The translations under genes and the position numbers were made by a program. A DNA stretch of 64,000 nt from Myrmaecium sp. VS I D KN 1 (taxonomy: Eukaryota > Ascomycota > Dothideomycetes > Valsariales > Valsariaceae), in assembly GCA_019775845.1 (NCBI GenBank), contig JADQAV010000002.1:1860001-1924000 (forward strand), in the 5' to 3' direction. Positions 21,761 through 25,551 of the stretch are shown here, piece after piece; within the stretch, counting starts at the first letter, position 1; each line of letters opens with the position of its first letter. The notes beneath the pieces are model-generated. The model did not search any database, was not told the DNA's origin, and was given only the letters and a program-made list of their open reading frames with translations.

Positions 21761-24145
21761 TTACACAACTGTCACATTAAGCCCTTTATCACCTTCTTTG
21801 ACGGTGACCTTGACGTTGTCGCCGCCTTTAACCTCGCCCCGGATTATCTTGTCAGCAAGAGCATTGCCTATCTCCTTCGAGATCAATCGGTTCAATGGTC
21901 TAGCTCCGAACTTGGGATCGTAGCCACGTTCACACAGCCACTCCTTAGCATCATCCTGGACGTCCAGAGTAATACGGCGATCATCCAACCGGGCCTGCAG
22001 TTCGCGTAGCCGGATGTCAACAATATCGCGTAGAGCCGACCTTGAAAGCCGCCTGAAGATAATGAATTCATCGAGACGATTGAGGAATTCTGGTGGATAG
22101 TTGGCAGCCACAACATCCATAACCGCCTTCTTGATCTCTGGAGAAATCTCTCCATCGCTGTTAGAGCCCTGCTTTACTTTGTATGAGGTCAACGTGTCAT
22201 CTCCAACGATGATATCCGCTCCTAGGTTGGACGTGAGGACTATAATAGTGTTGCGGAAGTCAATCTTGTGACCCTGGGAATCTGTAAGGAAGCCTTCATC
22301 GAGGACTTGAAGAAGTAGGGTGGAGACATCGCGATGGGCCTTCTCAAACTCGTCAAACAAAAGAATCGCGTATGGCTTGCGCCTCACAGCTTCAGTAAGC
22401 TGGCCTGCATCTTCATAGCCAACGTACCCGGCAGGGGCGCCGATAAGCCGGGAGATTGAGTGCTTCTCCTGGAACTCCGACATGTCAAAACGGATTACCG
22501 CTTGCTCAGTAGAGAAGAGGAATTCTGCCATCTTCTTGCAGAGTTCTGTTTTGCCCACTCCGGTAGGGCCCAGGAACATGAAGCTTGCCAGCGGCCTGTT
22601 CTCACCGCTCAATCCAGCCCTCTGCATACGAACGGCATTGGCAACTGCCGCAAGAGCTTCATCCTGGCCACGAACGGACTTCCTCAATGTATCCTCCATG
22701 TGGATTAACTTCTCTACCTCGCCTGCCATGAGCTTGGAGACAGGGATACCGGTCGTTCGACTGACAACCGTAGCAATATCGTCCTGGGTAACACTGTCGT
22801 GGAGGAGAGAGTCGGGAGACTTCGGAACGCTGTCCGAGCCGTCCTGAGGAAGCTTCTTTTCCAGGCTTGGGATCGTAGCATAGCGGAGCTCACTTGCCCT
22901 AGCAAAATTGCCTTCTCTTTGCGCTTGCTCAAGCTCATTCCTAGCCTTCTCGAGATTTTCCTTCACGTTTTTGATCTCTTCAATTTCGGCACGCTCCTTC
23001 TCCCATTTCTCCATAAGTTTGCCAACCTCTTCTTGCTTCGTCTTCAAAGTGGCCTCGAGCTTTTCTCGCCTCTCTTTGCTAGCAACATCTGTCTCCTTCC
23101 GAAGTGACTCAAGCTCGATTTGAATTGTCATGATCTGGCGGTCTAGCTCCTGAATAGCATCAGGCTTGCTCTCTTGCTGAAGCCTCAGCGCGCTAGCGGC
23201 CTCATCGACAAGATCGATGGCTTTATCAGGGAGGAACCGATCAGTGATGTACCGATTGCTATACGTTGCCGCTGCTACCAAGGCACCATCTGTGATTCGG
23301 ACGCCATGATGGACTTCGTAGCGTTCCTTGATACCGCGAAGGATAGAGATGGTATCCTGGACACTCGGTTCTCCAACAATGATCGGCTGGAATCTTCGTG
23401 CAAGCGCCACATCCTTCTCGATTTGCCTATATTCATTCAAGGTTGTAGCACCGCAGCATTGGAGTTCGCCACGAGCAAGAGCCGGTTTTAGGAGATTACT
23501 CGCATCAATGCTGCCTTCAGCCTTCCCTAGGCCTAGCAGAGTGTGTAGTTCGTCAATGAACAGGATGACGCCTCCTTGAGCTTCTTCCACCTCTTTCAGA
23601 ACTTTCTTTAACCGCTCCTCAAAATCTCCTCGGAATTTTGCGCCGGCTATCAGCTGGCCTAAGTCAAGGGCGATGACTCTTTTATCTTTGATGGACTCTG
23701 GTACATCGCCCCGAACTATTCTTTGCGCCAGGCCTTCTAGGATGGCCGTCTTGCCCGTACCTGCGGACCCAATAAGGACAGGGTTATTCTTCGTACGCCT
23801 CGAGAGAATTTGGATCGTTCGATGTATTTCGGCATCTCGCCCGATGACGGGATCGAGCTTTCCGTCCTTTGCGCGCTGTGTAAGGTCGACTCCGTATTCC
23901 TCCAAAGCAGGTTTCTCGGGCTCTCCACTCATGTTCATGCGGTGAGTTCCCCCTGGAGGATGTGGTCGGCCATTAGAATAAGGCCGTGACGCTATTATCG
24001 GGCGCAGTACCGTCTGAACGGATCTCGGCGTGAAGAAGGCTGGACGGCTTGCAATGGCAGCAGCTCTCAGAGCTGTAGGGCGGGCCGCCGCTGCTAGTCG
24101 TCGTGTCGAAATTCTTGCTTGTGAGGATAACATATTGGGTATCAT
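21761..24145 (-). CDS. hsp78: Mitochondrial Hsp78, ClpB-type disaggregase
   Basis: A single-exon 794-residue protein. Residues 1-~60 are Arg/Ala/Ser-rich without acids, a matrix-targeting presequence. The ClpB N-terminal substrate domain is missing, as in all Hsp78 proteins. NBD1 follows with Walker A GSAGTGKT (~126) and Walker [13 protein letters not shown]. The coiled-coil middle domain spans ~390-480. NBD2 has Walker A GPTGVGKT (~526), the pore-loop segment [20 protein letters not shown], and Walker [11 protein letters not shown]. The C-terminus has the expected [15 protein letters not shown] sensor 2 block. Hsp78 cooperates with mtHsp70 to rescue aggregated matrix proteins after heat stress. 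Met5 is an alternative start. The gene is divergent from eEF1B across 367 bp that contain AGGGG stress elements and a repeated AGCTTCC motif. Identification is secure. Confidence 0.97.
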
Positions 24146-24512: not shown

Positions 24513-25551
24513 ATGGGTTTCACCGACTTCGTCTCCGACGCTGGCCTCACTCGTACGTCAGAGCCTTCGGTGGTGGGGCAGCAAACGGCGACAGAATCTT
24601 ACTGACTCTTCTCTGCAGTTCTTGACAGCTGGGTCAAGTCCCGTTCTTACATCGTTGGGTAAGCCCGCTTCCCCAGCATTCTATTCGTCCCCTTCTATAC
24701 CCCGCGTTTCTGCTTTCATGATGAGAAGAAATTGGTCCGTGTTTAAGAGGCGGCTTAAGACCCCGCTGCTTGACTACAAAACAATAGCGCTTGACGCAAC
24801 TCTGATCTTTCCACTTCGCAAACCATTATTCCACTTCACTTCTGCCGGTCCGGTTGGGATACATTAGCTAACATGCGAAAAGCTACGCCCCTTCCCAGGC
24901 CGATGTCAAGGTTTTCCAGCAGCTGAAGGGCGAGCCCGATGTCTCGAAGTACCCCCACGCCTACCGTTGGTACAAGCACATCGCCACCTACGAGCCTGAG
25001 TTCTCCACGCTCCCTGGTGACCCGACCAAGGCCGCTACCGCCTACGGCCCCGAGTCCAGCGAGCTCCCGGTCAACCCCGCCAAGGCCCCCGAAAAGGCTG
25101 AGGACGATGACGACGTGGACCTCTTCGGCTCTGATGACGAGGAGGAGGATGCTGAGGCCGTCAGGATTAGGGAGGAGCGTCTTGCTGAGTACAGGAAGAA
25201 GAAGGAGGGCAAGACCAAGCCTGCTGCCAAGTCTCTCGTCACCCTTGACGTGAAGCCCTGGGGTAAGTTCTTCCAATCAAGCTCTGGGGTCTTGTCATGT
25301 TGATGCTAACTGTTTTACCAGATGATGAGACTCCTATGAAGGAGCTCGAGGAGAGCGTTCGCAGCATCCAGAAGGACGGTCTCGTCTGGGGTGCTTCCCA
25401 GCTCGTCCCCATCGGTTACGGTATCAAGAAGCTTCAGATCAACCTCGTCGTTGAGGACGAGAAGGTTTCCACAGATGAGCTCCAGCAGCAGATTGAGGAG
25501 TTCGAGGACTACGTTCAGTCCACCGATATTGCTGCTATGCAGAAGTTGTAG
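24513..25551 (+). CDS. EFB1: Translation elongation factor eEF1B subunit (EF-1 beta)
   Basis: Four exons (24513-24552, 24619-24658, 24883-25262, 25322-25551) join to 229 residues, normal for the family. eEF1B is the guanine-nucleotide exchange factor that reloads eEF1A with GTP during translation elongation. The N-terminus ([20 protein letters not shown]) is the GST-like anchor. The centre has the acidic motif [19 protein letters not shown]. The C-terminal GEF domain contains [39 protein letters not shown] and ends DIAAMQKL, matching the family end. Codon bias is strong. Intron 2 (24659-24882, 224 nt) is much longer than its neighbours and carries an apparent U18 snoRNA. The gene is divergent from Hsp78. 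Identification is secure. Confidence 0.97.
24713..24810 (+). ncRNA. SNR18: Intronic C/D box snoRNA, U18/snR18 type
   Basis: Inside eEF1B intron 2 a perfect C box ATGATGA (24718-24724) and a perfect D box CTGA (24802-24805) stand 77 nt apart. Between them, 24732-24744 reads TTGGTCCGTGTTT. This is perfectly complementary to the universally conserved large-subunit rRNA stretch AAACACGGACCAA, which is the target of U18 in animals and snR18 in yeast (25S A649/C650, as I recall it). It is followed by AAGA, a degenerate D' box, so the fifth base upstream falls on the expected adenine. Budding yeast snR18 also sits in the intron of EFB1, the same host gene. No good terminal stem is visible next to the boxes, so the ends are approximate. 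Confidence 0.85.

Follow-up and report, generated by a model that had tools for sequence, protein, structure and literature searches.

A predicted U18-type box C/D snoRNA in an eEF1B intron of Myrmaecium sp. and its second copy in NOC4

Described U18 snoRNAs and the eEF1B host gene

The U18 family and its residence in the eEF1B gene of yeast are already known: S. cerevisiae TEF5/EFB1 hosts snR18 and TEF4 hosts snR38 (PMC2705663), and C. albicans EFB1 hosts snR18 as well (PMC2926782). In yeast, U18 directs methylation of two neighbouring bases by means of an unusual C'/D' motif, its D' box being AUGA, and an accessory guide is located between its D' and C' boxes (PMC5389607). Among filamentous ascomycetes, N. 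crassa encodes two intronic U18s of 89 nt each with a D' guide, CD46A and CD46B, for which the source table gives the evidence codes N and R, taken here to denote northern blot and reverse transcription (PMC2780460). T. rubrum encodes the intronic U18 TRnc_1157 of 95 nt, which was sequenced as cDNA (PMC3890542), and an intronic U18 of F. graminearum falls on deletion of the debranching enzyme (PMC9606315). The accessible portions of the literature searched contain no statement on U18 in eEF1B or NOC4 of Pezizomycotina, which is weak evidence of novelty. Human SNORD18, represented by Rfam family RF00093, is located in a ribosomal protein gene, RPL4. To this background the locus described here adds a matched intron position, a second copy in NOC4 and a parallel in the gene for eEF1B-gamma.

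The window, i.e. the whole stretch of 64,000 nt from contig JADQAV010000002.1 of Myrmaecium sp. VS I D KN 1 that was analysed, contains an eEF1B (eEF1B-alpha/beta) gene on the plus strand (24513..25551, numbered within the window). Its four exons (24513-24552, 24619-24658, 24883-25262 and 25322-25551), the borders of which were set by eye, encode a spliced product of 229 aa, which matches Pfam EF1_GNE (E 6.6e-35) and EF-1_beta_acid as well as EF-1-beta chains in the PDB. Intron 1 (24553-24618) comprises 66 nt and intron 3 (25263-25321) 59 nt, whereas intron 2 (24659-24882), with GT...AG borders and in phase 2 within a Gly codon, comprises 224 nt. Direct reading thus agrees with the sequence-only reading that intron 2 is far longer than the other two (3.4-3.8x). 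A 794-aa ClpB/Hsp78-like ORF, named by eye, lies head to head with eEF1B on the minus strand of the window (21761-24145).

We consider it likely that eEF1B intron 2 gives rise to a functional U18-family box C/D snoRNA (snR18/SNORD18), which would guide LSU methylation at the equivalents of yeast A649 and C650, that its location in eEF1B goes back to the ancestor shared by Pezizomycotina and Saccharomycotina, and that a copy in NOC4 supplies the same guide. The observed basis consists of the anatomy of the element, its paralog, the identity of the host gene and the position of the intron, from which expression, processing, methylation and common descent are predicted.

Anatomy of the intron 2 element and its copy in NOC4

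On the sense strand of eEF1B intron 2, a C box, a guide and a D box follow one another in order. The predicted snoRNA (24713..24810, plus strand, ends approximate) has a C box of the form RUGAUGA near its 5' end (ATGATGA, 24718..24724), a 13-nt D' guide (TTGGTCCGTGTTT, 24732..24744) complementary to LSU AAACACGGACCAA, and a CUGA D box near its 3' end (CTGA, 24802..24805), all three at exactly the positions that had been proposed from sequence. Three further features lie between guide and D box, namely a degenerate D' box (AAGA, 24745..24748), a candidate accessory guide (GCGGCTTAAGACC, 24750..24762) and a C'-like TTGACTA (24770..24776), whose assignment we infer; neither the degenerate D' box, nor the accessory block, nor the copy in NOC4 had been noticed in the sequence-only reading. 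C and D boxes span 88 nt. The intron has 59 nt ahead of the C box and 77 nt behind the D box; in N. crassa, the distance from the 5' splice site to an intronic snoRNA is mainly 41-60 nt (PMC2780460).

By base-composition estimates, the 13-mer guide has a probability of ~3e-6 of occurring on the sense strand of intron 2. In the 25.7-Mb genome as a whole the 13-mer alone is not rare, with 0.67 occurrences expected and two found (the same pattern read backwards occurs once), whereas the combination of the full guide with a C box 2-14 nt ahead of it is expected at ~0.0009 sites and was likewise found at two. A loose pattern of C box plus short guide matches seven places in the genome, two with the full guide (eEF1B and NOC4) and five without it. 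Scanning viral contigs for the LSU target and the U18 core yielded no match, and a looser U18 pattern retrieved 58 stretches there, none of which combined a C box with the full guide.

The Rfam SNORD18 model (RF00093) had been suggested as a check of the U18 assignment. It does match the element, scoring 25.4 bits over 24713-24759 (E 0.017 in a search of 501 bases, E 0.205 in one of the whole genome), but both this copy and the one in NOC4 (29.9 bits, genome-wide E 0.015) remain below the gathering score of 41, which is a detection threshold and not a biological feature. At gathering thresholds, an Rfam scan of the whole window returned no match. Below-cut-off matches to RF00093 were also obtained in 10 of 14 prokaryote controls, and the third match in the Myrmaecium genome (19.9 bits, E 4.6) lacks the full guide, because the latter occurs at two places only. 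With human SNORD18 and its family the element shares the C box and guide block; it differs in its host, which in human is a ribosomal protein gene, and in scoring below the family cut-off.

The second place in the assembly with the full guide is an intron of NOC4 (G000:C2:461099-461374, minus strand; 276 nt, splice sites set by eye). This copy is located on the sense strand of the intron between the main NOC4-coding exon and the next exon, and the preceding exon matches Noc4 in the PDB (E 7e-164). It contains the same C box, the same guide, the same block GCGGCTTAAGACCCCG including an identical candidate accessory guide, a C'-like TTGATTA and a D box, with a C to D span of 89 nt, and its D' box reads ATGA instead of AAGA. 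Alignment of the two introns scores 93, and none of 1000 dinucleotide shuffles exceeded 32. Over the section that runs from the C box to C', the two copies agree in 54 of 60 columns, whereas identity did not exceed 61% in 300 random pairs. Identity of the 50-nt flanks (30/58 and 31/57, i.e. 52% and 54%) falls between the random-pair median (48%) and the 95% point (55%).

A chance resemblance within an ordinary long intron would accord with the sub-threshold Rfam score, with its genome-wide E of 0.2, and with the number of occurrences expected for the 13-mer alone. It would leave the low expectation for C box plus guide (0.0009) and a second copy of the same anatomy, aligning far beyond all shuffles, to coincidence, and we regard its probability as negligible. 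Alternatively, the eEF1B element could be a decaying U18 relic whose work is now done by the NOC4 copy. Its D' box, AAGA as opposed to ATGA, and its lower RF00093 score (25.4 vs 29.9 bits) point in this direction; however, it retains intact C and D boxes, the complete 13-nt guide and an intact shared block, its similarity to the paralog is high (54/60 columns), and C'/D' motifs vary considerably among active snoRNAs (PMC5389607). We therefore consider decay improbable and favor a working snoRNA at both loci.

Terminal stems are often present in box C/D snoRNAs, and in some intronic ones they are weak or external. No stem joining C and D was better than those of shuffled sequences in either the eEF1B copy (137/500 shuffles as good) or the NOC4 copy (148/500), in line with the earlier impression that a flanking stem is not evident. 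The distal GCG/CGC pairing that had been put forward to assist processing was rejected, as 137 of 500 shuffles were as good. A structured intron was rejected likewise, as intron 2 as a whole folds worse than most shuffles (195/200 fold at least as well, z +1.78). In addition, a second guide had been suspected before the D box (GACGCAACT); it is not found at the D box of the NOC4 copy and has no convincing LSU target, and was dropped as a functional candidate. Of the D-side sequence, CGCAACTCTG is common to both copies and sits upstream of the D box in the NOC4 copy, and the longest exact complements of D-side segments to the 15 eukaryotic LSU contigs described below measure 10 nt. Between C' and D of the NOC4 copy (L006, minus strand), though not beside its D box, CAATTCGCA is complementary to the 9-nt TGCGAATTG present in 8 of these 15 contigs.

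LSU target and accessory pairing

The D' guide is complementary at 13 of 13 positions to LSU AAACACGGACC in each of 15 eukaryotic LSU contigs, which derive from a scan of genome contigs and none of which was recognised by eye as ascomycete. The target is also present in fungal LSU sequences printed in PMC12287172 and PMC4995647, one of these passages ending a base short; all LSU sequences with the target were selected by a pattern containing it. The 15 contigs (L008-L022) occur inside 15 bacterial genome records and represent apparent contamination. In the Myrmaecium assembly itself, a 26-base pattern for the LSU target gave no match with up to 3 mismatches, and the 5.8S rRNA model gave a sub-threshold match (24.5 bits vs 42; G000:C60:27059-27152), so the organism's own rDNA seems to be absent from the assembly.

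Counted from the D' box, which begins at 24745, T24740 is the fifth base of the guide and G24739 the sixth. In yeast numbering, T24740 would face the LSU base that we take to be equivalent to yeast A649, and G24739 the equivalent of C650. In the proposed course of events, the eEF1B pre-mRNA would be spliced, the lariat debranched and the linear intron trimmed by exonucleases to an RNP with an RNA of roughly 90-100 nt, held together by Snu13, Nop56, Nop58 and Nop1 on the C/D and C'/D' motifs. The D' guide would then pair with AAACACGGACCAA of the LSU, and fibrillarin would methylate the A and probably also the C next to it, the counterparts of yeast A649/C650. The NOC4 intron would supply the same guide from a second locus.

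Furthermore, the block common to both copies could act as a U18 accessory guide and perhaps assist by pairing just 5' of the LSU target. The 13-nt accessory block was delimited within a shared block of 16 nt with the yeast LSU already in view. In the printed S. unisporus LSU passage it pairs best immediately 5' of the target, forming 10 Watson-Crick pairs and one G-U over its 13 positions; permuted blocks were as good in 30 of 100000 cases at that place and in 110 of 5000 anywhere in the passage. In the I. orientalis LSU and one basidiomycete LSU, as far as these are printed, the best place for the block is not beside the target, and an 8-nt exact complement to the accessory segment was found in one of the 15 eukaryotic contigs (L014), not within 70 nt before the target. 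The LSU region that faces the block varies between species. In an artificial construct, extra pairing was without effect on U18 methylation (PMC5389607). If the block does function as an accessory guide, GGTCTTAAGCCGC is predicted just before CCGTCTTGAAACACGGACC in the organism's own LSU. As far as sequence comparison goes, the proposed U18-type identity is supported by the anatomy of the element and its NOC4 paralog, and less strongly by the accessory block.

Intron position, the snR38 parallel and descent

Primers that remove the yeast EFB1 intron read ...K-S-Y-I-E-GG and T-(T-A-V-S-Q-A) (PMC2705663, Table 3), i.e. K-S-Y-I-E-G(GG|T)-T-A-V-S-Q-A when joined, which places that intron in phase 2 of a Gly codon provided that the primer ends coincide exactly with the exon borders. 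In Myrmaecium sp., exon 2 of eEF1B ends S-Y-I-V-GG and exon 3 begins C-(Y-A-P-S-Q-A-D), so that intron 2 lies in the same Gly codon and in the same phase as the yeast intron inferred from these primers. The sequence-only reading had proposed the same host gene as in budding yeast, and the shared intron site strengthens this proposal.

S. cerevisiae snR18 and the element resemble each other in host gene, intron codon and phase, D' guide and predicted LSU target; between D' and C', yeast snR18 has an accessory guide and the element a candidate for one. They differ in the D' box (AUGA in yeast, AAGA here), in the C' motif (AUGAGUGA in yeast, C'-like TTGACTA here), in the second copy in NOC4 here and in intron length, the yeast EFB1 intron measuring 366 nt and the one described here being shorter. 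N. crassa CD46A and CD46B, compared by their published description, provide a likeness in that two intronic U18 copies exist in a filamentous ascomycete, and T. rubrum TRnc_1157, compared in the same way, is likewise an intronic U18.

snoRNAs are known to change hosts over evolution. That a filamentous fungus and baker's yeast both have U18 in one gene, in introns that agree in codon and phase, suggests retention of the host intron since their common ancestor, and the eEF1B-U18 arrangement is probably very old because it shares its intron site with the copy of baker's yeast. An ancestral U18 within the intron would offer an explanation of why the EFB1 intron was spared during intron loss in yeast. 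Furthermore, with a further copy in NOC4, a gene for nucleolar ribosome assembly, it becomes possible to test whether supply is shared or one host is being replaced by the other.

The mobility of snoRNAs within genomes (PMC3511168, discussed in PMC8476143), together with the second U18 copy in NOC4, could also be taken to mean that U18 entered the eEF1B site on separate occasions in Pezizomycotina and in Saccharomycotina and that the shared host reflects convergence. Such convergence would have had to reach the same codon and phase, and to be accompanied by an snR38-type match in eEF1B-gamma, as in yeast TEF4; we consider it very improbable and retain inheritance from a common ancestor as the preferred reading.

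The eEF1B-gamma gene of Myrmaecium sp., identified by its EF1G domain and a PDB match to EF-1-gamma, contains this snR38-type match with the C box AAGATGA (G000:C8:1233628-1233698, L093, minus strand) in an intron after ...LAIAVY. The intron of yeast TEF4, the host gene of snR38, follows ...ALAIQFY according to the primers listed in PMC2705663. An Mrp/Ind1-type gene for an Fe-S carrier has a second snR38-type match in one of its introns (G000:C57:464357-464442, L090, minus strand). By the snoR38 model, which also gave below-cut-off matches in 4 of 14 prokaryote controls, the eEF1B-gamma copy scores 27.9 bits and the Mrp/Ind1-type-gene copy 44.6 bits against a cut-off of 45. The lower score and the AAGATGA C box of the eEF1B-gamma copy would fit decay of the copies in eEF1B genes, as weighed above for U18; by the Afu_328 model, however, the order is reversed, with 34.5 bits for the eEF1B-gamma copy, again under the cut-off, and 31.7 bits for the other.

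Both eEF1B subunit genes thus carry the snoRNA type of their yeast counterpart, and each type has a second copy elsewhere whose fit to the Rfam model (U18 or snoR38) is better, with the exception of Afu_328, by which the eEF1B-gamma copy is the better one. With two cases, this parallel is suggestive only. Tentatively, and as a possibility that we rate as rather less probable than its contrary, the eEF1B subunit genes may form an ancient pair of snoRNA hosts in Ascomycota, with U18 in alpha and snR38 in gamma, each of which gained a second, better-Rfam-fitting copy in this lineage (in NOC4 and in the Mrp/Ind1-type gene, respectively), so that host switching or dual supply would here be caught in the act.
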